IMG/VR virus record: IMGVR_UViG_3300047552_000668
Span: 1-30,508 of that record
Source: a virus
Strand: one strand, 5' to 3'
DNA: 30,508 nt
This document shows, one piece after another, positions 5,734-23,775 of this stretch; the first letter of the stretch is position 1; each line of letters opens with the position of its first letter. The notes below the pieces were generated by a model. It saw only the letters and a program-made list of their open reading frames with translations. It did no database searches and had not been told where the DNA came from. A program made the position numbers and the translations under genes.

Positions 5734-6753
5734 TTAATAGTCTTCTGTTGCGTTATTTACTTTAATCTGACATACATAGCTTGTTGTCGTATCTTTTATT
5801 GCTGAAACGTCAAGTTCCTGATTTATAGCCTCTATGCTTCCTACCTGCGGATTAACGTTGTTAAAATAGCAGCAAGGAATATTGATTGACATCGAATAAG
5901 TCGAAGCCGCTGCGCTTAATGTAACGCCGGTATCAAGTATAATCTGTATTGCAGTTTTTGTAGCCTGAATAAACCTATTGTATGACGTAAGCGTGTCAAA
6001 CTGCTGGTTAAGTTTTAATTTAACGTCCCTTCTTAATGGCGGCATTGCGTACACATAAGGTGATCCGAGAACCCTTTGTTCAGCAAGGTTATTTGCTAAC
6101 GTAAACTCGAATCCTGTTATATACTCTGTGCTGACTGCTGATATTGTAGCACCTGTGTTGAATGTAACCCCTGAAAAATTCAACGGGTTTATATTCGTAA
6201 AACTTGCCGTCAAACTATCCGATGAGCTTGTGCCGTATCTTCCCATCAGTTCAAAAGTAGCAGTAATTGGAGAGCCAACTTCCCCTTTGATGGTCATGGT
6301 ATTTACTCTCATGCCTTTGTACTGCCACTGGTTAGTGAGTCCTCTACGAACCGTCACAGTTAAGCCTTTAACATCATCGGCTGAGCTTGTGCCTTTGTTG
6401 TCTTCCATGTTGCCAACATTTAACGTATGCGAGTACGCGCCCACAGCCGTAAGTGTCGCGCTCGAGCACGTCCCGCCCATAGCCTGTTTCATCAGATAAA
6501 TAAAACCGTCTGCGGCTATGTTAAGTGGAGCTTCAAGTGATCCGCTGACTGTCACATTACCTGTCATCCTGCGGGTAAAGTCTCTTGTCGTGTTAATCTC
6601 TTCTCGTCTTTGTTCTTCGATTTCTTTAATAAATCCTTCAGACGTAAATTCTACAAAAGTAGTAGCTGTCTGAACTGAACTATATGTTGATTCTTCGGCA
6701 ATGCCGATATACGAATCATAACCTAAAAATGGAGTGCCGTTACCTACTGACAT
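5734..6753 (-). CDS. Major tail tube protein
   Basis: 339 residues. The product is predicted to form the tail tube. The N-terminus has the pattern of long-form tube proteins: GYDSYIGIAEESTYSS, then a strand ending FVEFTSEGFI, then an Arg/Glu-rich loop (EQRREEINTTRDFTRR) leading to a GNVTVSGSLEAPLN strand. The rest is strand-rich, with MTIKGEVGSPITATFELMG as a typical beta-sandwich hairpin and a second module at 215-335. The gene lies directly upstream of the tail chaperones, the canonical place for the tube gene. A GAGGTG ribosome site inside the preceding small gene serves the ATG at 6753. Family name is inferred from pattern and synteny, without a database hit. Confidence 0.85.
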   Translation of the reverse strand: MSVGNGTPFLGYDSYIGIAEESTYSSVQTATTFVEFTSEGFIKEIEEQRREEINTTRDFTRRMTGNVTVSGSLEAPLNIAADGFIYLMKQAMGGTCSSATLTAVGAYSHTLNVGNMEDNKGTSSADDVKGLTVTVRRGLTNQWQYKGMRVNTMTIKGEVGSPITATFELMGRYGTSSSDSLTASFTNINPLNFSGVTFNTGATISAVSTEYITGFEFTLANNLAEQRVLGSPYVYAMPPLRRDVKLKLNQQFDTLTSYNRFIQATKTAIQIILDTGVTLSAAASTYSMSINIPCCYFNNVNPQVGSIEAINQELDVSAIKDTTTSYVCQIKVNNATEDY

Positions 6754-6952
6754 CTTCGTTCACCTCTTCTTTTTTAGTTTCTCTTACAATTACGAAACTA
6801 TTTTTTCTTCCGTTTTTTACTTTCAATAGGTGTCTGCCTTCGCTATCGCTTACTTTAATTATGTTATCACCCGAAGGTAATGTAACGCCTCCGCTGTGAT
6901 ACTTTAAATAAGGGATTACCATAGGCCTGTGATCTACGTATTTAATTTTCAT
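6740..6952 (-). CDS. Small hypothetical structural-module protein
   Basis: 70 residues, overlapping the tube gene start by 14 bases and the stop of the preceding gene by 4 bases. The middle has a short strand-loop pattern (YHSGGVTLPSGDNIIKVSDSEG) and the C-terminus is basic then acidic. No known motif. Small basic proteins between tail completion and tube genes are common in phages, but I cannot give it a role. Confidence 0.7.
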   Translation of the reverse strand: MKIKYVDHRPMVIPYLKYHSGGVTLPSGDNIIKVSDSEGRHLLKVKNGRKNSFVIVRETKKEEVNEDVSR

Positions 6953-7962
6953 GCAGCCTCCTTAAATACATCAGGAGGCAACGTCTGAACTATCACGCTT
7001 GCAACCTGATTATCTTTTAAAACCTGCTGTAATTTATTTTCTCCTTCCTGAGCCGTAACAACTATCGGCACAATACGAGTCTGTATAATATGATTAAATT
7101 CCTGCTCTGTTAGCTTGCGCTGTACTGAGTCTTTAAGTACTTTTTTTATGTCCCTATATCCTACGTTTAGAAGTCCGCCCTTTGAACACTTAAAAATCTT
7201 TCTTTTCTGCGGAGTTAAAATTCCATTTACAAAATCACTCATCCACCTTGCGGAAAATAAAAGGTTCTGCGATGTACAGACAAGCTCTCCATTCGTGTCT
7301 ATAAGCTGATTGTGGTTCATATACCAACGTTTATCTGAATCCTCGCCGCAATAATAGTTATCGTTCTGTCCCCAGCAGAAACCATATCCAATAAGATAAT
7401 ATTCATCGTATAACAAGTAAGTTGAAGCATGTACTAAAACACTATTCCCGACATTACTGGAAGCCTTTACGAACTCCCTGCATCCGCTTATTGGAGCGAA
7501 TATTTCTTCTGTTTTGATGTTGTCCTGATTAACAAAATAAACAACATTCCCTTTCCAGTTCTTAGCCCATTCAGGATTTGCGGTAACGTTCATCATCAGG
7601 CAGATTCCTTTTGTCTGCTCAATGTAAGGTTTGCACCATTTATTGTAGTCAATTCCTGCATCTGCCAAGTAAACAAAATTCGGCTTAATGCCATGATTCA
7701 ACAAATAGCCCATTGCCTTATCGATACTAAGGATGTCTACCGATTCATTCTTCTGTTTAATATCGTCTATCCGATATTCAAGTTCCGGTGAATAAGCTAC
7801 ACATATAGCCTTACGACCTACGCCATGGCCATAGAGCCTTTGATTGCTTATTCCTTTCTGACGCATTATCTCACCGTTTTCTTTAGCGTGTGAACGCCAT
7901 GTTCCTTCCCACTGCTTCATTGCGCCTTTACTCTGTTTGAGTACTTCCGCCTGACTTAACAT
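6949..7962 (-). CDS. DUF115/Maf-like (MptE-like) protein, possible glycosyltransferase
   Basis: 337 residues. The pattern matches the DUF115 family, which includes archaeal MptE pyrophosphokinases and the Maf flagellin glycosyltransferases that move nonulosonic acids onto Ser/Thr. Visible parts: a strand at 52-57 followed by SPELEYRI; IKPNFVYLADAG at 92-103, like the family I-x-PDfv-x-x-D motif; a strand VVYFVNQDN at 140-148; and GNSVLVHASTYLLYDEYYLIG (172-192) followed by GFCW, like the family GxxV-x-x-hA...liG-x-D segment. It lies between tail completion and tail tube genes, ending in an ATGA overlap with the next gene, so it is cotranscribed with the virion genes. That position is odd for a metabolic enzyme. 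Substrate is unknown; a non-catalytic structural role is possible. Confidence 0.6.
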   Translation of the reverse strand: MLSQAEVLKQSKGAMKQWEGTWRSHAKENGEIMRQKGISNQRLYGHGVGRKAICVAYSPELEYRIDDIKQKNESVDILSIDKAMGYLLNHGIKPNFVYLADAGIDYNKWCKPYIEQTKGICLMMNVTANPEWAKNWKGNVVYFVNQDNIKTEEIFAPISGCREFVKASSNVGNSVLVHASTYLLYDEYYLIGYGFCWGQNDNYYCGEDSDKRWYMNHNQLIDTNGELVCTSQNLLFSARWMSDFVNGILTPQKRKIFKCSKGGLLNVGYRDIKKVLKDSVQRKLTEQEFNHIIQTRIVPIVVTAQEGENKLQQVLKDNQVASVIVQTLPPDVFKEAA

Positions 7963-15352: not shown

Positions 15353-16573
15353 TTACCATTGTTCTTCTACGGTTCTATCATAAGTCTCTACGCTTACAGG
15401 CGCGTTATTCCTTGAATCTGAGTATAGTGCATAACGAATTGAATCCGCCATATCATCGTTGACTTTCAAGGGTACTTCTTTTATCGTGTTTTTAGAATCC
15501 CATATATAAGAATCCATTTCCCTTAACGTGTAAGTACATTCCTGATTTATTAACAACTGCTTATTCCCAATCATCCCTTTAACGTGCATTATGCCATCAA
15601 ATACATCTTTAATGGCTGGCTCTGCCGGTATCGCTTCCCGCTGTAAATCTTCTATAATCTCAGGCCTTGAACTATCACAATATATAATCTCAATAGGATA
15701 TTCAAGCATTATTTCTTTGACTTTATTTATTATATCAGAACTGGACATTTTACGCTGATACAATTCAGCATACTGATAATATGTATTTTCTCTTATGCCC
15801 ATAATGCTCATTGCTGTCGGATGTTCAAATCCAAAGTCAAGCCCTGCGATCCATCTGCCTATCTTGTGTCTATCGGGTAATTTATCAGGCTTTATTCTCT
15901 GTGTCATGGGAAAGTTATATATGAGTCCTTCAAGACTGCCCCATTTCCCCATTACCATTCTTTCGTAGTATTCAGGATTAGTACGTTTAAATGTCTCTAT
16001 ATCCTTGAGATATTCTGCCGGTAAATAACTATTATCAGCGGAAATAGAGTAAATGACTTCACTGTTGTCTATGGGAGTTTCAATAAAATATTTATAAACA
16101 TAATTCCCGAACGTCCCCGGATTAGTAGCCCCGAATAGACATCCCGGCATTCCCTGTTGTCTTAATCTTGTACGCAGCATTTTAAATATTTCTTCAGTCG
16201 TGTCGGTCATTTCCTCAATTGCCGCAAATCCGAGGTTCAATGACTTTAACTTATTGGCATCATCAAACGACCTGAATATAACTTCTGATCCATTTAAGAA
16301 TACAAAATGCTGTTCTGTTTTATTGTATGATTTGAGTATTTCAGGAGGTACTATATTAAGAAATTCTCTGAGTGTTGTGTCTCTAAGTAAAGGGTAAGTC
16401 TGTGCGCCTATAAGTCCAAATATGCCGGAGTAAGATTGAATTAACGCTAAAGCCTTCAGACAAATTGAGTAAGTTTTTCCGCTGCCGACACCCCCTGAAT
16501 TGAGTGTATACTTCTTTGTGGAATTTACAAAATCTGCCTGATGAGATATTAGATCAAACGCTATCTGTTTCAT
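15353..16573 (-). CDS. Terminase large subunit
   Basis: 406 residues, the ATP-driven DNA packaging motor with headful or site-specific nuclease. Walker A is SGGVGSGKTY (26-35), Walker B FAAIEE (116-121), coupling motif GATNP (148-152). The RNase-H-like nuclease has GLDFG with Asp246, YCDSS with Asp300 and a final Asp in DDMADSIRYAL (Asp377). Length is typical of the PBSX/SPP1-like terminases. The start overlaps the small subunit gene by 20 bases with a poor ribosome site of its own, so coupled translation is likely. Confidence 0.96.
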   Translation of the reverse strand: MKQIAFDLISHQADFVNSTKKYTLNSGGVGSGKTYSICLKALALIQSYSGIFGLIGAQTYPLLRDTTLREFLNIVPPEILKSYNKTEQHFVFLNGSEVIFRSFDDANKLKSLNLGFAAIEEMTDTTEEIFKMLRTRLRQQGMPGCLFGATNPGTFGNYVYKYFIETPIDNSEVIYSISADNSYLPAEYLKDIETFKRTNPEYYERMVMGKWGSLEGLIYNFPMTQRIKPDKLPDRHKIGRWIAGLDFGFEHPTAMSIMGIRENTYYQYAELYQRKMSSSDIINKVKEIMLEYPIEIIYCDSSRPEIIEDLQREAIPAEPAIKDVFDGIMHVKGMIGNKQLLINQECTYTLREMDSYIWDSKNTIKEVPLKVNDDMADSIRYALYSDSRNNAPVSVETYDRTVEEQW

Positions 16574-16958
16574 GCTTTGTCTTATTACGATAGATTATCT
16601 CTATGCCTTCGGGAGAACTAATCTCATGTTTCTCTGATGCCTTGCCTGACATCTTCATAAACGATAATATATCGTTTGTCTTAGCTTTCATCATGCCTTC
16701 TAAAATCTTATAGTATAGTAAAGGCATTTTACGCACTTCTTCAGCGTTCCTTTGTGTCTTAATTAACGTTAAAAGTCTGTCTACTTCCTCTATTGGTAAT
16801 AAAGATATATGGTTTACTATGTTGTCCAAATCATTTTGAGATAACATGTTGTCTTCTTTGAGATAGTTAAAGTAGTTCTTCGGTCTGCCGTTTCTTTCAG
16901 GCTGATTATCTTTACTAAATTGTGTATTCTTTCCTACTATTCCTATGTCTGGATTCAT
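16554..16958 (-). CDS. Probable terminase small subunit
   Basis: 134 residues directly upstream of the large terminase and overlapping it. The N-terminus has QFSKDNQPERNGRPKN, a basic Gly-Arg motif seen at the start of many phage packaging/DNA-binding proteins, followed by helices rich in Leu (DLDNIVNHISLLPIEEVDRL) and an oligomerisation-like segment. It should recognise the packaging start site. The ATG at 16958 has no Shine-Dalgarno; instead two copies of AAACCGTTT (plus-strand sense) lie immediately before it. An alternative internal start at MLSQND (residue 38) is possible. Confidence 0.7.
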   Translation of the reverse strand: MNPDIGIVGKNTQFSKDNQPERNGRPKNYFNYLKEDNMLSQNDLDNIVNHISLLPIEEVDRLLTLIKTQRNAEEVRKMPLLYYKILEGMMKAKTNDILSFMKMSGKASEKHEISSPEGIEIIYRNKTKHETDSV

Positions 16959-17023: not shown

Positions 17024-18373
17024 TTATTCTTTTGACTTCCACAAGAAACCAATCAAATTAACCACTTCCGAATATTTAGCAGGATTGATCTCCAGTATCT
17101 TATCAAGGTACTTTCTGGCTTTATCGTAGTCTTTATAGAAACGTGATTCAATCATTACAAGATAATAAATGAAATCTTCCATGCCTGGCTTCTGTTCTGC
17201 GAGTTCCTCGAATAGTGCTTTGCTCTGTTTTATGTGGTTAGTGATATTACATTCTTTGGCTTTATTCTCATCCCACTGATGATAAAGATAAGCAAGTTGT
17301 TTTCTGATTTTATAGTGGTTTCCTGTCGGTTCGAGTGCTTCTTTTAATACTCTTTCCTGCTCATGTAAGTCTTTAAAGTTCTTAATGGCGTTCATTACCC
17401 ATGCGTCAGGATAGCCTTTAAATACCTGTCGGGCTTCTTCCCATTTCTCATTTTTGAATAAGTCCATTGCTTTCTTTTGTTTCTCAAGAATAGACACTAT
17501 ATCAAGATAGTTTTCTTTTATTACAATCCTTGGAACTTTTGCCTTTTTACATAATACGGTATAACCATACAAGAGTTCATCTTCTGTTATTATTTCAAAT
17601 CCGGCTTTATTCAGTATGTTGTTAAGGCTGACTTTTGTAAATTGGTTTACATGGTTAAGATGATAAAGCTCTTCAAATTCACTGCAAAGATTTCCTGAAG
17701 GTTCATCAAGGATTGCGTCCTGTACTACATAAGGAACGCTAATATATAGATATCCGTTGTCATTAAGTTTGTCATTGAATTTGTCCAGTAGTTTGTCCGG
17801 ATATTGAACGTGTTCGAGTGTATGATAACAGGAGATAAAGTCAAACTTCTGATCCGGTATTGTCTCTGTAATGTCTATGCCATATTCGTATTTCCCGAAC
17901 TTACGTAGAACGTCATTAGATTCCACTCCATACGAATTTACAGACACGGTTTCATTCAAATCTTTATCATGTATTTTAATTTTATCGTCATAAAATCCAC
18001 ATTCAATAAATTCATCAAACCATTTTAAAAAATATCCAGTTGCAGCTCCGTAGTCTAATACATTGATACAATTATCATCATTATCAAATTTTAATTTATT
18101 CTTCAAAAACTTTTCATGATAATATAGTTTACGTCTTTTAGTTATAAGCGATCCAATGTCAACTATCCTGACTAAACTTTCATAGCGTCTTTTTAATTCT
18201 TCGTCATCTGTGTAATCGTATGTGACAAATCCGCAATTCTTACAAATCTTAAATCCTACTGGCTCATCAATAAGATAGTCCCTTTCATACCAGTATTTCT
18301 GATCTCTTAAATAATCAAGACTTTTCCAGTCTGATGAATCACATACGCTGCATGTTTTGTTTTCTATTATCAT
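17024..18373 (-). CDS. Zinc-binding SAM methyltransferase with TPR-like tail
   Basis: 449 residues. An N-terminal treble-clef-like site has C8-x2-C11 and C44-x2-C47 (CKNCGFV). The SAM domain has VLDYGAATGYF (105-115) as motif I, HTLEHV (184-189) and a late HVNQFT (241-246). This order, zinc site then Rossmann fold with a late HxxxF-like motif, is that of sugar C-methyltransferases such as those of deoxysugar pathways, and of related O-methyltransferases. Residues ~285-449 look like helical repeats (EEARQVFKGYPDAW, YDKARKYLDKILEINPAKY), TPR-like. It is the last gene of the carbohydrate-type operon and follows the previous gene by 9 bases with AGAGG. The substrate is not known. Confidence 0.82.
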   Translation of the reverse strand: MIIENKTCSVCDSSDWKSLDYLRDQKYWYERDYLIDEPVGFKICKNCGFVTYDYTDDEELKRRYESLVRIVDIGSLITKRRKLYYHEKFLKNKLKFDNDDNCINVLDYGAATGYFLKWFDEFIECGFYDDKIKIHDKDLNETVSVNSYGVESNDVLRKFGKYEYGIDITETIPDQKFDFISCYHTLEHVQYPDKLLDKFNDKLNDNGYLYISVPYVVQDAILDEPSGNLCSEFEELYHLNHVNQFTKVSLNNILNKAGFEIITEDELLYGYTVLCKKAKVPRIVIKENYLDIVSILEKQKKAMDLFKNEKWEEARQVFKGYPDAWVMNAIKNFKDLHEQERVLKEALEPTGNHYKIRKQLAYLYHQWDENKAKECNITNHIKQSKALFEELAEQKPGMEDFIYYLVMIESRFYKDYDKARKYLDKILEINPAKYSEVVNLIGFLWKSKE

Positions 18374-18382
18374 TATAACCTC

Positions 18383-18598
18383 TTAATTTATTATTTGTTC
18401 TGCATTCATTATTCTTAATCCAGACAATATTTTATATTTCTCTGCTTCTAAAAAATAAATAATATTCATCGGTAAAATCTGATTATCATAACACACTATT
18501 TTACCATCTTTAAACCATGCGTAAATTAAACAAGGTTCATCATTCTCTACACATTCAATAGCGAGTTTTAATTGCTGAATCATTTTTTCTTTATTCAT
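18383..18598 (-). CDS. Small hypothetical protein in sugar cassette
   Basis: 71 residues, starting in an ATGA overlap with the aldolase-like gene. A helix (MIQQLKLAIECVENDEPC) is followed by a strand-rich part (LIYAWFKDGKIVCYDN) and a helix with AEKYKILSGLRI. No motif recognised. Its coupling suggests a role with the cassette enzymes, but nothing in the sequence identifies one. Confidence 0.7.
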   Translation of the reverse strand: MNKEKMIQQLKLAIECVENDEPCLIYAWFKDGKIVCYDNQILPMNIIYFLEAEKYKILSGLRIMNAEQIIN

Positions 18599-19302
18599 TT
18601 TATTACTTTCTCCAGTTCTTTAACGCTTAACATGTGTCTTTGATCTGTTACCGATTTTCCATCTATCGAACATTCTACCATGAAATGTTTTACATCTATT
18701 GCTTTAAATGCCTTGTAAGTATCTCTCACGTATTCTTTACGTCCTACGCTATGAGAACAATCAACAATAAGCCTGTCAAATATGTCCGGTCTTTCAATCT
18801 TTATCCTGATAACGCCTTTTAAATCAGGTGACCAGCGACTATCTTGTTCACGGTCTATATTGACTTCCCCTCTTTCTATTATGTAAGGTTTTCTATTGTA
18901 TCTGTCAACAATTAAATCATATAAGTCAATGGTTTCCTGAATAGTCATCGCCGGAGAACGCTTCAGCATTATGTCGCCTTTGTATAAATCACATAACGAT
19001 TGAATTAAAGAATAGTTTGAACAGTTCCGAGCTCCTATCCAAAGAAAGTCCAACTGATTACATTCAGCTACCTGCTGCGGAGTCTGAACTTCTGTTCCTA
19101 CTGGCATCAGTCTTTCCCGGATATATTCAAGTACGAATAAGCCTTTAGCTCCTACGCCTTCATAGTAACGATCAGCCCTTGTCCCACCCATGAACAGTTT
19201 AGTTCTAAAATGAGTAGCAATACCTTTTAATGCTTCTGCTGTTTCTCTTACGTGCTTTTTATCTGCTAATGATATAAAGCCACATGTTCCGCAAATTAGA
19301 AT
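18595..19302 (-). CDS. Class-I DAHP-synthase-like PEP aldolase, non-AUG start
   Basis: 235 residues if translation starts at ATT 19302, 8 bases after GGAGG. The first in-frame ATG (19191) would remove the conserved start LICGTCGFISLADKKHVRET. Family landmarks: GTC with Cys7, GVGAKGL, WIGARN (88-93), MLKR with Lys114, ERG with Arg144, VDCSHSVGR with His184, MVEC with Glu210, Asp220. These match the four metal ligands (Cys, His, Glu, Asp) and PEP-binding Lys/Arg of DAHP synthase. The KPRTS loop for erythrose-4-phosphate is replaced by TRADRY, so the aldehyde substrate may differ. The family condenses PEP with an aldose to make a 3-deoxy-ulosonate. At 235 residues it is shorter than bacterial DAHP synthases. 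An in-frame stop lies a few codons above ATT; CTG 19317 is an alternative start. Confidence 0.8.
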   Translation of the reverse strand: MLICGTCGFISLADKKHVRETAEALKGIATHFRTKLFMGGTRADRYYEGVGAKGLFVLEYIRERLMPVGTEVQTPQQVAECNQLDFLWIGARNCSNYSLIQSLCDLYKGDIMLKRSPAMTIQETIDLYDLIVDRYNRKPYIIERGEVNIDREQDSRWSPDLKGVIRIKIERPDIFDRLIVDCSHSVGRKEYVRDTYKAFKAIDVKHFMVECSIDGKSVTDQRHMLSVKELEKVIK

Positions 19303-19571
19303 AGTCTTTTCCTCCAGAATTTCTTTAATTTCATTTCATTGTACTCTTTCATTTCTTCCGGCTTCGCTTTCGGCATATAATACTTTCTTCGCATCAACTC
19401 GCCTTCAATTATAGTTTCTTTCCGTTCAAGATCATTTGCATACAGATATCCGTTTGTACTTCGCTTGATCTCATATATCTGCTCTATAAGTTTTACAAGG
19501 TTCTTACTTGGTATCTTATAGACTTGTAAACGAAAAGATTCTATACTTACATCGATGAGCTTTTGAGCCAT
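19296..19571 (-). CDS. Small hypothetical protein in sugar cassette
   Basis: 91 residues from MAQKLIDV, chosen because AAAGG lies 7 bases before this ATG; a longer frame to 19613 lies inside the SDR gene. Helical and basic, with KNLVKLIEQIYEIKRSTNG in the middle and a Lys/Arg-rich end (MKLKKFWRKRLF). It overlaps the SDR gene upstream and its TAA overlaps the proposed ATT start of the aldolase gene, so the three are translationally linked. Function unknown. Confidence 0.7.
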   Translation of the reverse strand: MAQKLIDVSIESFRLQVYKIPSKNLVKLIEQIYEIKRSTNGYLYANDLERKETIIEGELMRRKYYMPKAKPEEMKEYNEMKLKKFWRKRLF

Positions 19572-20398
19572 TGATAAACCTTTTCCATTCCTTCCCGATA
19601 TTTTGTTTTGCATTCCCAGTCTAAAAGATTATAAGCCTTTGATGTACTTACATCTTCTTTCTGGAAATCTCCATAACGAGTAAAGCCACGTTTTAAATTA
19701 ACTGAATTACCTGTCAAAGCCATTACAACACTGATGGTATCCATGATCGATATCTGTTCACTGCCGCAAAGATTTATTATCTCACCATTGCATTTATCAA
19801 AATTCATGCAGGCTTTATAAATGCCATCAATAAGATCATCGATATAAATATATGTCCGTGTCTGGCTGCCGTCACCATTTATGTTTATTGTCTCGCCTTT
19901 TAACGCTTTATCTAAGGCTATGTAATTAAATAATTCTTTCCGCATCCCTTCGCCGTACACTGTACCAATTCGCAGTATGCAATATTTTAGCCCGGGCATA
20001 CCCTTTAAGATGTACTCGCCAGCCATTTTACTTGCTGCATACGGTTCATTTGTCAAAGGATAGGATGTTTCATCAACGTATCTGTCACTGTGGTAAACGC
20101 AGCAGGTTGAAATAAATATCATCGGTATATCGTGTTTGACACAGAACTTAGCGACTTCATAAGTACCCCGAATATTAACTTGAAAATTATTGTCTTGATC
20201 TTTGATCGATTCATTAAGGTCTGCTATGGCTGCCATGTGCACAACCATATGAACAGGCTCAGGAATTATAATCTCGTTTATTTCAAGTATGTTTCTTTCA
20301 GGTAAATCAAAAGGAATTACTGTAATGTTTTCCTGCTGTAGTTTCCTACAGAACGCTGAAGGGATAAACCCCTTATTCCCGGTTACAAGTATATTCAT
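19547..20398 (-). CDS. Extended SDR nucleotide-sugar epimerase/dehydratase
   Basis: 283 residues. An NAD(P)-binding Rossmann start has TGNKGFIPS (6-14), a variant of TGxxGFIG with Pro in place of the last Gly. HMAAIAD (54-60) is the usual sugar-SDR segment. Catalytic residues are Ser97/Thr98 (FISTCCVY), Tyr120 and Lys124 (PYAASK). ILRIGTVYGEG, GDGSQTRTYIYIDDLIDG and the C-terminal end are those of UDP/GDP/CDP-sugar 4-epimerases, dehydratases and reductases. It is coupled by ATGA to the cytidylyltransferase-GT2 gene. The specific reaction cannot be told from sequence. Confidence 0.88.
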   Translation of the reverse strand: MNILVTGNKGFIPSAFCRKLQQENITVIPFDLPERNILEINEIIIPEPVHMVVHMAAIADLNESIKDQDNNFQVNIRGTYEVAKFCVKHDIPMIFISTCCVYHSDRYVDETSYPLTNEPYAASKMAGEYILKGMPGLKYCILRIGTVYGEGMRKELFNYIALDKALKGETININGDGSQTRTYIYIDDLIDGIYKACMNFDKCNGEIINLCGSEQISIMDTISVVMALTGNSVNLKRGFTRYGDFQKEDVSTSKAYNLLDWECKTKYREGMEKVYQWLKSSSM

Positions 20399-21705
20399 AC
20401 GTTATCTGGATGCTCCGCCTCTTGTGTTAATTGACCGTTCCTTTTCCGGTAATACCAGAGAACGTCTTTATAATAAGCAATAGTGCAATGTTGTTTTAAT
20501 CTGTCTAAAAACTCACCACCTATTTTATATCTCAATCCTGACTTGAATTTAAGCTCATTAATGAGCCTCTTGTTTATCAATGCAGATCCCAGGTGTTCAG
20601 TGTTATGTTCAACTCGTTCTGCTAATTGGTTAGATTCTTCATCAAGTCTTTCATATCCTGCCATGCATACATCGTCATGGCTTTCTTCAAGTACATCGTG
20701 CATTGTCTGTAAAGCCGTGTCACAGAAGACATCATCAGCGTCAAGAGCAACTATATATTTCCCTCTGGACATTTCCAGTGCCTTGTTAGAATTAAACGCC
20801 TGCCCCCTGTTCTCTGGATTTCTTACAAACTGAATTTTGCGCCTTTCGTTGTAATGTAAAGTCTCCAAATATTCGGCGATCTTCTCACAAGTCTTGTCTG
20901 TTGAGCAATCATCAATTATGATGTATTCCCAATCATCAAATGTCTGGTTAATTACCGATTTCATGGTTTCCTGAATATACTTTTCAACATTGTAGGCCGT
21001 TGTATAGACTGTTATTTTAGTCTGTTTATTGATACGTAGTAAATATTTATTCTGCTTCAGTAAATTGATAATGTCAAGCGTCCCAGGTCTTTTAAGTAAC
21101 GAAAAAAGAACTCGTAATAGCGTCAAGTCTTCTTCGTAATCCATAGTCAATCTGAATGAGTGCTGATATTCAAACGGCGGGAAATATTCAATCCAGTTAT
21201 TTTCGGGCAGCTTCAAATAATAGCTTGTGAATTCTGAAAACTTATCACCAAGCATCTTGACGGCCCTTCGGAGTGCGTCAACGCTTATTACTTCTCCGGC
21301 GATGCCTTCAGGACACTTTGACATATAAGTATAGTCTCTATTGCCTTTAATGTGAAAATCTATCTGAAGGAATAACAACGTCAAATCAATTAAAATGTCA
21401 TCATGCGTTATTCTGATAATGTGGTCAAAGCAGTATTCTTCAGCACATTCTAAAAGTCTGTGACTTGGGCAAAATGAACCTTGGAACACTTCAATGCCTT
21501 TGCTTTTTGCGATATCAATTATTTTCTGCTGTTGTCCGTCGTTTGGAACGGCTACCACTACTTCGTATTTATCATTGATTACATGATCTAAAAGAATTTC
21601 AAAACATGTCTTGCCGTTTATTTCTTCCAGAATCTTTTCATGCATTCTGCTTGATTGTAAACGTGTTGGAATTATAATTCCGATGTTGTTTTCTTCTCTG
21701 TTCAT
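20395..21705 (-). CDS. SpsF-like cytidylyltransferase fused to GT2 glycosyltransferase
   Basis: 436 residues from MNREENN, chosen for the ATGA overlap with the radical SAM gene and GGAG 8 bases before it. Residues 1-~210 match the SpsF/KdsB/NeuA-type nucleotidyltransferases: IIIPTRLQSSRMHEKILEEI (10-29), FEILLDHV, ITHDD (99-103), and FRLTMDYEEDLTLL (184-197). Residues 229-436 are a GT-A family 2 transferase: ITVYTTAYNVEKYIQET (231-247), IIIDDCSTD (262-270), NRGQAFNSNKAL (299-310), LDADD (321-325) as the metal-binding DxD. The fusion would activate a sugar acid as CMP-sugar and transfer a sugar. The family usually keeps these as separate proteins. Confidence 0.85.
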   Translation of the reverse strand: MNREENNIGIIIPTRLQSSRMHEKILEEINGKTCFEILLDHVINDKYEVVVAVPNDGQQQKIIDIAKSKGIEVFQGSFCPSHRLLECAEEYCFDHIIRITHDDILIDLTLLFLQIDFHIKGNRDYTYMSKCPEGIAGEVISVDALRRAVKMLGDKFSEFTSYYLKLPENNWIEYFPPFEYQHSFRLTMDYEEDLTLLRVLFSLLKRPGTLDIINLLKQNKYLLRINKQTKITVYTTAYNVEKYIQETMKSVINQTFDDWEYIIIDDCSTDKTCEKIAEYLETLHYNERRKIQFVRNPENRGQAFNSNKALEMSRGKYIVALDADDVFCDTALQTMHDVLEESHDDVCMAGYERLDEESNQLAERVEHNTEHLGSALINKRLINELKFKSGLRYKIGGEFLDRLKQHCTIAYYKDVLWYYRKRNGQLTQEAEHPDNV

Positions 21706-22574
21706 TTGTAACTCTCCATAGAACTGCAATTTCTACATGCATTATTATAAATTCTATGCTGTAAATTATCAATTAAATTCAATCGTCTTTCGCTATTCCA
21801 TATTTCCTTTAATGATTTATCACCAAGCCTTCCCATGTATAATTCAGATTGTAAAGCGTAAGCAACACAACAAGCATAAACGAATCCATTCTCGGAAATT
21901 ACCATTCGGCGATTAGGCTGATTGCAGTATTTTCTTTCTCCGCTTTGCAACATGTTTATATAAATATCCTGTTGATTGCGTTCAATAGCTGGTCTTATAT
22001 CGTAATCAACTTCATCACCAAAAAATTCTTTAAACGCTTCATCCGGTTCTGAAATTTTAGTTGTGCGCCTATTTAAGATAACTTTCGGCATATTATGTTC
22101 TTTACGAAGTGCACTTAGTTTGTCAAGGCTGGCAAGTGTCTGAAAGAAGTCCGCTCCTTTACGAATGCGGTTATAAATTGCTTCTGCGGATGAATCGAAG
22201 CTAACTTTCAGATTGTCAATTGTCCATGCTAACGTATTCAATTCAAATTCACTATAAGTGTCTGCGAGTGCTGTATTAAGCATTGTGTAGAATCCATTAG
22301 CTTTAAACAGCATAAATATTTCAGGCCAGTTCGGATGACTTAATGCCTCGCCTCTCCAGTTGAATTTTATCGAAGGAATACGCATCTCTTTTGCTTGTTT
22401 AAAAATGTCATAGACTAAATGCAGGTCTATATCCTTTGCAGGATATTTATGTTCTTTACGAAAGCAGAATTCACAATTAAGTTTGCATTTTGTGGACAGC
22501 TCTAAATCAATATGAGCCGGTGAGGAAAAACTGATGTATTTTGCGAGATGCCATTTAAGGCGTGCTTTTATCAT
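21702..22574 (-). CDS. Radical SAM protein with SPASM-like C-terminus
   Basis: 290 residues. CKLNCEFC gives the C30-x3-C34-x2-C37 cluster motif. KFNWRGEALSHP (about 69-80) is the family GGEP-like segment, and LKVSFDSSAEAIYNRIRKGA (121-140) is the usual SFD motif. The C-terminus has KYCNQP, CC near 234-235 and CRNC near 280, arranged like a SPASM auxiliary cluster, with MGRLGDKSLKEIWNS typical of that domain. SPASM enzymes modify peptides or sugars by hydrogen abstraction. The start ATG follows the microprotein stop directly (TGAATG) and has no strong ribosome site. Confidence 0.88.
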   Translation of the reverse strand: MIKARLKWHLAKYISFSSPAHIDLELSTKCKLNCEFCFRKEHKYPAKDIDLHLVYDIFKQAKEMRIPSIKFNWRGEALSHPNWPEIFMLFKANGFYTMLNTALADTYSEFELNTLAWTIDNLKVSFDSSAEAIYNRIRKGADFFQTLASLDKLSALRKEHNMPKVILNRRTTKISEPDEAFKEFFGDEVDYDIRPAIERNQQDIYINMLQSGERKYCNQPNRRMVISENGFVYACCVAYALQSELYMGRLGDKSLKEIWNSERRLNLIDNLQHRIYNNACRNCSSMESYK

Positions 22575-22748
22575 TCAATTTATTGTATTACTGTTATTTT
22601 CAATTACAACTTTATCTTTTAATATTTCTTCTAATTTTGTCAATCTTTTTTTTCGTCTGTATAAAATATAATTACCGATTAAAAAGCATGTAAAAAATAT
22701 CATGGAAATTACAGCATAAGTATAAAAAATAACATTTAATATTTTCAT
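22575..22748 (-). CDS. 57-residue single-pass membrane protein
   Basis: Reads MKILNVIFYTYAVISMIFFT then CFLIGNYILYRRKKRLTKLE. A hydrophobic span covers residues 5-30, RRKKR marks a cytosolic edge and a short charged helix follows. It begins ATGA with the 35-residue frame and ends TGAATG with the radical SAM gene, so it is embedded in the operon. Function unknown; a membrane anchor for the cassette or a holin-like peptide are the options. Confidence 0.65.
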   Translation of the reverse strand: MKILNVIFYTYAVISMIFFTCFLIGNYILYRRKKRLTKLEEILKDKVVIENNSNTIN

Positions 22749-22852
22749 CTATCCTGCCGATCCTTTAAATTACTGCGTATAAATCCTATTATAAATAAGA
22801 TTACAAGTATAGCGATAATAATTAAAAATATTATTCCGAGTGTGTATATCAT
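22745..22852 (-). CDS. 35-residue membrane microprotein
   Basis: Reads MIYTLGIIFLIIIAILVILF then IIGFIRSNLKDRQDR: one strong membrane span plus a basic/polar tail. It is the first gene after the promoter at 22859-22886. GGGGG lies upstream at a slightly long distance. It is coupled by ATGA to the next small membrane gene. Confidence 0.55.
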   Translation of the reverse strand: MIYTLGIIFLIIIAILVILFIIGFIRSNLKDRQDR

Positions 22853-22893: not shown

Positions 22894-23775
22894 TTACTGA
22901 AATAAATCCTGCTGTGCCTTATCCCCGATTCCATTCCAGTACAGTTTTTCTATTATCTTTTTTTTATCGTGTGAATTTTTATTGTTCATTAGTGATTCTT
23001 TGTGTTTTGCGGCAATCTCTATAAATAACTTATCCTCGCAAAATGAAGACGAAAAATAAACCGGTATTTTCTGACTTTTAGCCCACTCATAAAACTCCTG
23101 TGTATTAAATTCTATTCCGTAATAATTTTCTTTTTTTCCTTCTTTTTGGTTATAAGGAATATCACAATAAATAACAGAATTTGATTTAATCTTGACATCC
23201 CTATAATCTTTAGAAAATACCTCCAGTTGTTCCAGTTGTTCCAGTCGTTCCAGTCGTTCCAGTTGTTGCAGTCGTTCCAGTTGTTCCAGTCGTTCCAGTT
23301 GTTCCAGTTGTTGCAGTTCAAAACGTCCGCTTAATTTTGCCTGTTCTTTAAATTCTTTAATCAATGCAACTCGTTTTTCTGACGTATAATCGTATCCATG
23401 ACTAAACAAATATTCATGTGCTTCGTGTTTAATTTCTTCAATGTCCTTCCCGAAAATATATGAATCACCATTATTTCCAAAACTCCAAATCCAGCGGATA
23501 TATAAATCCTTATCCTTTTCAGCAGAAAACTGTTCTCGGCTTATCCATCTTTTTTCATTTTTATATTTTCCGTTTATTGCGTCTTGAAACAAAACCATCG
23601 TTCCTTGAATATCGTTAGCAATTATATTTTTCCACTTATTATGTAATAAAGCACAATGAGTAATCGCACCGCCTCCAGCAAATAGATCATATAAATTTTC
23701 AGCTTCTGGTAAATGCAAGATAATCCATTCCGCTATTTTTGACTTACTTCCTTGATATGAAAATCCATATTTCAT
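22894..23775 (-). CDS. D12-class N6-adenine DNA methyltransferase with LEQ/LER repeat insert
   Basis: 293 residues. YQGSKSKIAEWI near the start and YDLFAGGGAITH (29-40) form the SAM site, ND at 54-55 follows, and CDIPYN (204-209) is the catalytic DPPY-type motif with Ile for the second residue. These define Dam-like D12 methyltransferases. Residues ~154-186 are runs of LEQ, LER and LQQ encoded by an imperfect 9-bp tandem repeat, placed between the recognition region and the catalytic motif. They would form a charged amphipathic helix. The enzyme probably protects phage DNA from restriction. The start overlaps the stop of the previous gene by ATGA. Confidence 0.88.
   Translation of the reverse strand: MKYGFSYQGSKSKIAEWIILHLPEAENLYDLFAGGGAITHCALLHNKWKNIIANDIQGTMVLFQDAINGKYKNEKRWISREQFSAEKDKDLYIRWIWSFGNNGDSYIFGKDIEEIKHEAHEYLFSHGYDYTSEKRVALIKEFKEQAKLSGRFELQQLEQLERLEQLERLQQLERLERLEQLEQLEVFSKDYRDVKIKSNSVIYCDIPYNQKEGKKENYYGIEFNTQEFYEWAKSQKIPVYFSSSFCEDKLFIEIAAKHKESLMNNKNSHDKKKIIEKLYWNGIGDKAQQDLFQ
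23221..23319. repeat. Imperfect 9-bp coding tandem repeat, eleven units
   Basis: Eleven 9-base units of consensus TTCCAGTTG (plus strand) with TCG and TGC variants in a row. The repeat is in frame, so gain or loss of units changes helix length without shifting the reading frame. It lies inside the adenine methyltransferase gene. Confidence 0.9.

Follow-up and report, generated by a model that had tools for sequence, protein, structure and literature searches.

Introduction

Ulosonic acids, among them sialic, pseudaminic and legionaminic acids and 3-deoxy-D-manno-octulosonic acid (KDO), occur as decorations on cells and on flagella and control recognition. Among the closest described systems is the glycosylation of flagellin with nonulosonic acids (NulO), for example in Campylobacter and Clostridium, which uses a phosphoenolpyruvate (PEP)-condensing synthase (NeuB, PseI or LegI), a cytidylyltransferase (PseF or NeuA) and Maf (PMC13317340, PMC11339370). 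Maf is a flagellin glycosyltransferase that transfers nonulosonates, with GlfM as an accessory factor for some Mafs (PMC13317340). The C. botulinum Maf takes both cytidine monophosphate (CMP)-N-acetylneuraminic acid (CMP-Neu5Ac) and CMP-KDO as donors (PMC11339370); therefore, Maf donors span both types of PEP synthase. Among viruses, the capsid and tail tube of the mycobacteriophages Che8, Corndog and Myrna are reported to be glycosylated by phage glycosyltransferases (cited in PMC12363180 and PMC12619734). Here we describe a gene block, or cassette, in the IMG/VR virus record IMGVR_UViG_3300047552_000668. The whole 30,508-nucleotide (30.5-kb) stretch that was analysed, probably a fragment, is referred to as the window.

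The enzyme block proper (17024-22574) combines a PEP-dependent aldolase with a cytidylyltransferase-glycosyltransferase fusion, and a Maf-like gene is fixed ahead of the tail-tube gene of the same phages. Taken together, we find it rather probable that this phage makes a CMP-activated 3-deoxy-2-ulosonic acid and transfers it to its own virion proteins. The ulosonic-acid chemistry is, taken by itself, quite likely, and on the virion as target the evidence leans slightly in favour.

Conservation of the block among phages

Relatives, referred to below by G and L numbers, were gathered via terminase, methyltransferase, SpsF/GT2 (glycosyltransferase family 2) and Maf-like searches, together with alignments; viral contigs scanned with single proteins, the aldolase and the radical S-adenosylmethionine (SAM) protein, yielded nothing. 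The shared gene order was radical SAM, SpsF/GT2, in some cases a short-chain dehydrogenase/reductase (SDR), a small protein, the PEP synthase and the methyltransferase, mostly in the terminase/portal region. This order was observed in L003/G001, L010/G005, L013/G007 and L015/G008, as well as in G020, G029, G032, G035, G036, G041, G043 and G046. It was interrupted by insertions in G009 and G033 and partial in G015, G028 and G037. The pairs G005/G007 and G041/G043 look like near-copies, and about 18 distinct phages carry the whole or part of the block when the window, G004 and G006 are counted. Because it recurs in so many distinct phages, the block is not a chance arrangement, and the set of genes first picked out in a single sequence is conserved.

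The first-pass annotation of this DNA had described nine coupled genes between two promoters, including two small soluble proteins and two membrane microproteins. Nine open reading frames (ORFs), overlapping or tightly packed on the minus strand at 17024-22852, do exist, as do the promoter-like sites. However, sites of this kind occur at a chance number (54 found against 46.4 +/- 6.9 expected from shuffled sequence). In addition, comparison with the relatives did not show the 57-, 35- and 71-aa ORFs to belong to the conserved block, so the core consists of six genes rather than nine, with the microproteins and the 71-aa ORF outside it. Within the core, the methyltransferase gene was found in nearly all cassette phages, the radical SAM gene keeps its place, and the SpsF/GT2 fusions of the relatives are 34-49% identical to that of the window. 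The slot of the small protein between the glycosyltransferase and the PEP synthase is conserved while its sequence is variable, and the slot of the 71-aa ORF holds a 171-aa gene in L003.

An integrase was not found in 20 of the 22 records, and most of these are fragments; the tyrosine integrases (PF00589) in G007 and G036 suggest that some members are temperate. Two further genes were observed at cassettes of relatives. In G003, which has the methyltransferase, PseF-like and radical SAM genes and no PEP synthase, a TnpB/IS605-like gene adjoins the cassette (L005 56-1306). In L223 (7224-8021) and L017 (775-1512), the cassette has at or near it a gene for a dehydrogenase-like protein of the G(F/M)GEVGK type, which could be another sugar enzyme.

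The PEP aldolase

The aldolase had been listed as a 198-aa ORF from 19191. Its family assignment held, but the ORF proved too short since it begins within the barrel. The same frame extends upstream to 19302, and this upstream reading, ILICGTCGFISL..., contains the first strand that was to be expected, including the Cys that binds the metal. The codon at 19302 is ATT behind GGAGG, and at the same position homologues start with TTG (L003) or ATG (L010, L013 and L213). As the frame continues to the start site of the relatives, the aldolase is about 235 aa long and complete, apparently starting at the ATT codon.

Membership of the metal-dependent superfamily is seen at several levels. The protein matches DAHP_synth_1 (PF00793) with 46.7 bits (cut-off 25.5), and in an alignment of six phage homologues the metal ligands Cys7, His184, Glu210 and Asp220 were invariant, as were the PEP-site residues R92, K114 and R115. 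The structural model (predicted local distance difference test score, pLDDT, 87) aligned with a template modeling (TM) score of 0.87 and about 26% identity to the type Ibeta 3-deoxy-D-arabino-heptulosonate 7-phosphate synthase (DAHPS) 5j6f, and with a TM score of about 0.83 to the metal-dependent KDO 8-phosphate synthase (KDO8PS).

The best profiles were DAHPS (NF006421, 79.7 bits) and PHROG 5045, a phage DAHPS, but the 198-aa ORF as scored reached only 79.7 and 73.5 bits against DAHPS cut-offs of 335 and 267.75, and 18.6 bits against the KdsA cut-off of 242. In place of KPRT/KANR it has GGTRADR, a motif also found as GGTRPDR. It lacks the KPR(T/S) motif present in all 13 sampled cellular DAHPS and the KANR motif present in all six sampled cellular KDO8PS. 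In a tree with these 13 DAHPS and six KDO8PS rows, the phage aldolases formed two well-supported clades and two long branches, apart from the cellular enzymes. Judged by sequence, the window aldolase is neither KdsA nor NeuB. A scan of bacterial genomes with the aldolase alignment found no relative.

Replacement by NeuB

NeuB, the sialic/pseudaminic acid synthase family (PF03102), is absent from the window and takes the place of the aldolase in some relatives. In L011/G006, a 240-aa PF03102 protein takes precisely the position flanked by the small protein and the methyltransferase, and NeuB occupies the same slot in G032. In G004, where the match to a cytidylyltransferase is weak, NeuB adjoins an SDR that is 50% identical to that of the window. 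Across all records searched, the DAHPS-like enzyme was found in 17 and NeuB in five (the relatives G004, G006, G019 and G032, and the phage G010), and no record had both above the cut-off. Sub-threshold cross-hits between the two families in G019, G032 and G035 were weak; those in G019 and G035 fell on one and the same gene, as would be expected of enzymes from one superfamily.

The cytidylyltransferase and the PEP synthase also occur together. Among the 35 longer records, 11 had both, one the cytidylyltransferase only, two the PEP synthase only and 21 neither, giving a Fisher p of 2e-6; this value is approximate, as the records counted include fragments and some near-copies. Separate cytidylyltransferases in G003, G019 and G037 had PseF as their best match. 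A different phage, L018/G010 (IMGVR_UViG_3300035698_009217), carries NeuB, a GNAT protein, a class-III aminotransferase, a Gfo/Idh protein, an SpsF-like protein and a full Maf of 556 aa with the N-terminal domain PF20157. Its gene content makes it an independent precedent, with a viral nonulosonate set that is closer to the classical one.

The Maf-like protein and the tail tube

The gene at 6949-7962, overlooked in the first-pass annotation, encodes a protein whose structural model points to a likely ulosonic acid transferase. The protein has a PF01973 domain and the Maf fold. Its model (pLDDT 87.5) had Maf 5mu5 as the best structural match, with a Z score of 22.8, a root mean square deviation (rmsd) of 3.3 over 248 aligned residues and a Foldseek E value of 3e-10. 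CMP-sialyltransferases (such as CstI/CstII and ST8SiaIII; Z about 8-9) ranked behind Maf and one pterin enzyme considered below, and the single NCBIfam match was PseD (E 3e-4).

In the window and its relatives, this gene is located between the tail-completion and tail-tube genes. In every one of the 64 assessable Maf-like loci (of 67), the tail-tube gene followed downstream on the same strand, and no gap of more than 700 bases was flagged. Furthermore, both the window and each of the seven first-examined cassette relatives that reach this region carry the Maf-like gene. The small protein of the cassette may be an accessory factor like GlfM, a guess made by analogy from its position. In G004, a gene adjoining the tail-tube gene (L118 1227-1493) is weakly homologous (30%, E 4e-4) to that of the small 105-aa protein of the cassette.

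Proposed pathway

From the enzyme families, the metal and PEP site that the aldolase keeps intact, the conservation of the block, the NeuB replacement and the fixed place of the Maf-like gene, we infer a scheme in which every reaction, the order of steps, the product, the acceptor sugar, the target and the host are predictions. The aldolase would condense PEP with an aldose, probably neither erythrose 4-phosphate nor arabinose 5-phosphate, to give a 2-keto-3-deoxy acid, which the SpsF half of the fusion would convert to its CMP-activated form. The SDR and the radical SAM enzyme could tailor the acceptor, the precursor or the product. While still in the cytoplasm and not yet assembled, the tail tube, which is the probable acceptor, or another virion protein would then be O-glycosylated at Ser/Thr by the Maf-like protein, in the way that Maf modifies flagellin. 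Finally, the GT2 half would extend the glycan and the tetratricopeptide repeat (TPR) methyltransferase would cap it. The earlier description of the locus as an ulosonic-acid-type synthesis and transfer system is supported by the NeuB replacement, the PseF-like synthetases of the relatives and the Maf-like gene in the same phages. A broader proposal, that an uncultured tailed-phage lineage with phage-only PEP synthases O-glycosylates its tail tube through the Maf-like protein as bacteria do their flagella, with a sugar that may be undescribed, is put forward tentatively.

Several observations weigh against this pathway, in addition to the composition of the sample behind the Fisher test. The window block contains no aminotransferase, acetyltransferase or hydrolase; of the usual nonulosonate precursor enzymes (4,6-dehydratase, aminotransferase, N-acetyltransferase and hydrolase) only the SDR is represented, which leaves the donor-sugar precursors unaccounted for, so they would come from the host or from radical SAM/SDR steps. 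CMP-ulosonates are not usual donors for GT2 enzymes. The Maf N-terminal domain PF20157 was not found in the Maf-like protein of the window, and PF01973 also covers the MptE family. The Maf-like gene occurs in many records, most of them fragments, in which no cassette gene was detected, and its adjacency to the tail-tube gene does not prove the tail tube to be the acceptor.

Alternative explanations

The alternative that survives best is that the ulosonic acid goes to host flagellin, S-layer or polysaccharide, resulting in a superinfection block or lysogenic conversion. The flagellin role of Maf itself (PMC13317340), the integrases of G007 and G036, and the EpaA/EpaB proteins with which Acinetobacter prophages alter host nonulosonates (PMC12053666) agree with it. 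We nevertheless regard a host-surface target as unlikely. At every assessable locus it is the tail module, not an accessory slot, that houses the Maf-like gene; the block accompanies terminase and structural genes with no membrane transferase in it; and nearly all of the records, although mostly fragments, are without an integrase.

Doubt can also be directed at the Maf-like protein, which might be a pterin kinase of the MptE type, or a structural protein with no activity, and unconnected to the cassette, whose product would then go elsewhere. The second fold match was indeed an MptE-type 6-hydroxymethyl-7,8-dihydropterin pyrophosphokinase (HPPK) of M. jannaschii (Z 18.2, 202 aligned residues), in keeping with the span of PF01973 and with the occurrence of the gene in records where the cassette was not found. 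However, Maf scored higher over more residues, the NCBIfam and next-ranked fold matches are to NulO and sialic acid enzymes, pterin genes were not seen, and the gene accompanies the cassette in each of the seven relatives noted above, all of which makes this explanation improbable.

Phages do glycosylate their DNA and the block adjoins the terminase genes, yet sugar hypermodification of the phage DNA by the cassette is most improbable: no DNA-sugar pathway is known to condense PEP, activate with CMP or employ a Maf-like protein transferase, and modified-nucleotide synthesis genes were not noticed in the window. Least credible of all is an ordinary auxiliary DAHPS serving the shikimate pathway amid unrelated accessory genes, which the two top-scoring models favour and which the scores far under the cut-offs, the missing KPR(T/S), the separate phage clades, the substitution by NeuB and the consistently adjoining sugar genes contradict. 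In place of these alternatives, the synthesis of a CMP-activated ulosonic acid for the virion is retained as the preferred reading.

Organization of the locus

The features of the locus are listed in Table 1. Family calls were made by Pfam/NCBIfam profile searches, which supported the radical SAM/SPASM, SpsF-GT2, SDR, DAHPS-like aldolase and methyltransferase families named earlier from the sequence alone. They did not place the aldolase-like, SpsF-like or SDR proteins in unrelated families, and the small ORFs matched no family.

Table 1. Coordinates of the cassette, its flanking genes and the tail module genes in the window.
Feature	Position	Strand	Remarks
Radical SAM/SPASM protein	21702..22574	-	290 aa; PF04055 30.2 bits, PF13186 47.5 bits
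SpsF-type cytidylyltransferase-GT2 fusion	20395..21705	-	~436 aa from ATG 21705; PF02348 and PF00535
Extended SDR, nucleotide-sugar epimerase/dehydratase type	19547..20398	-	PF01370 123 bits
Small soluble protein	19296..19571	-	91 aa from ATG 19571 (most likely start)
PEP-dependent aldolase, DAHPS/KDO8PS superfamily	18595..19302	-	~235 aa, ATT start
71-aa ORF	18383..18598	-	No family match; not seen conserved
Methyltransferase, N-terminal CxxC/CxxC (zinc-type), C-terminal TPR	17024..18373	-	449 aa
Two membrane microproteins, 57 and 35 aa	22575..22852	-	No family match; outside conserved block
Promoter-like site 5' of block	22886-22859	-	TTGACA-16-TACATT; 10/12 matches
Promoter-like site between methyltransferase and small terminase	17023-16994	-	TTGACA-18-TATATT; 11/12 matches
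Small and large terminase subunits	15353..16958	-	Directly downstream of cassette
D12-type DNA adenine methyltransferase	22894..23775	-	Flanks the ORF block
Maf-like glycosyltransferase	6949..7962	-	337 aa; PF01973 56.7 bits
Phage tail tube protein	5734..6753	-	PF18906 110 bits; proposed acceptor

The radical SAM protein carries CX3CX2C at residues 30-37, as found by a motif check. In the fusion, the SpsF half belongs to the cytidylyltransferases (CTP_transf_3, PF02348, 34.4 bits; cut-off 22.6), and the two halves match the cytidylyltransferase 6oew and the glycosyltransferase 6p61; its start is most likely the ATG at 21705 instead of the TTG at 21729. The SDR, with GxxGFI and YxxxK, is 46% identical to its L003 counterpart. 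The methyltransferase matches Methyltransf_23 (PF13489) with 74.6 bits and the TPR weakly, and its Cys 8, 11, 44 and 47 were invariant in five homologues. The cassette enzymes have no transmembrane segments and thus give no sign of O-antigen transfer of the bactoprenol type. The microproteins, with Kyte-Doolittle hydropathy (KD19) maxima of 2.25 and 3.71, are probably bystanders.

The terminase genes lie directly downstream, where the first-pass annotation had placed them. The large subunit matches TIGR01547 with 136.5 bits, and a 134-aa ORF is called the small subunit by position only. On the other flank, the D12-type DNA methyltransferase gene contains a low-complexity insert of LEQLERLEQL units that is repetitive in another frame too.

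Comparison with known systems

Searches of 50,697 named phages gave no match to the Maf-like gene and no convincing match to the methyltransferase, the SpsF/GT2 fusion or the aldolase, and megablast against the same phages found nothing. Aldolase matches by tblastn in Listeria, Staphylococcus and Enterococcus phage records were rejected, as these are unannotated contigs with 26-33% identity that look like host DNA. A genome scan with SpsF/GT2 gave mostly single-domain matches and a few longer ones (L040, L050 and L099). The bacterial source and host were not found, with terminase and capsid matches below 30% to many hosts. Searches of open-access papers, most subscription journals and preprints being outside their coverage, turned up no account of such a phage system.

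Phage genes in, or resembling, nonulosonate metabolism have been reported before. EpaA/EpaB edit the pseudaminic acid of the host capsule (PMC12053666) and the NeuB domain of phage DLP4 (PMC6469090) belongs to a lone gene; neither is a conserved synthesis-plus-transfer block. In the mycobacteriophages, the glycosylated capsid or tail tube belongs to the class of target proposed here, and the passages of those reports that were covered mention no dedicated ulosonic-acid synthesis or Maf-like enzyme (PMC12363180, PMC12619734).

At the level of single enzymes, the type Ibeta DAHPS (Bacillus type) is closest to the aldolase in sequence and fold and shares all metal ligands with it, whereas the phage protein differs by its missing KPR(T/S), structural-alignment identity of about 26%, separate clade and other gene neighbours. 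The KDO pathway shares the superfamily fold for PEP aldol condensation (KdsA) and CMP activation by a KdsB/SpsF-type domain; in contrast, the window block has no KANR, KdsC/KdsD or KDO transferase and its aldolase scores far below the KdsA cut-off.

The block also resembles flagellin NulO glycosylation. Both systems have a PEP-condensing synthase, a cytidylyltransferase, a methyltransferase and a Maf-like gene beside a tubular structural protein. The present block differs in being phage-borne, in its DAHPS-like synthase in most members, its cytidylyltransferase-GT2 fusion and its radical SAM member, and in the lack of precursor enzymes in the window; moreover, the phage Maf-like protein is shorter, is without the N-terminal domain and adjoins the tail tube instead of flagellin. 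If the proposed pathway is true, viruses would join the makers of ulosonic acids with a new family of PEP synthases, and tail glycosylation resembling that of flagella would become directly testable. Soluble, self-contained sugar-transfer sets could also be of use in protein glycoengineering. Although it falls outside the DAHPS and KdsA families and, in the window, outside NeuB, the block is, on the evidence of its genes, one that resembles NulO/Maf protein glycosylation.

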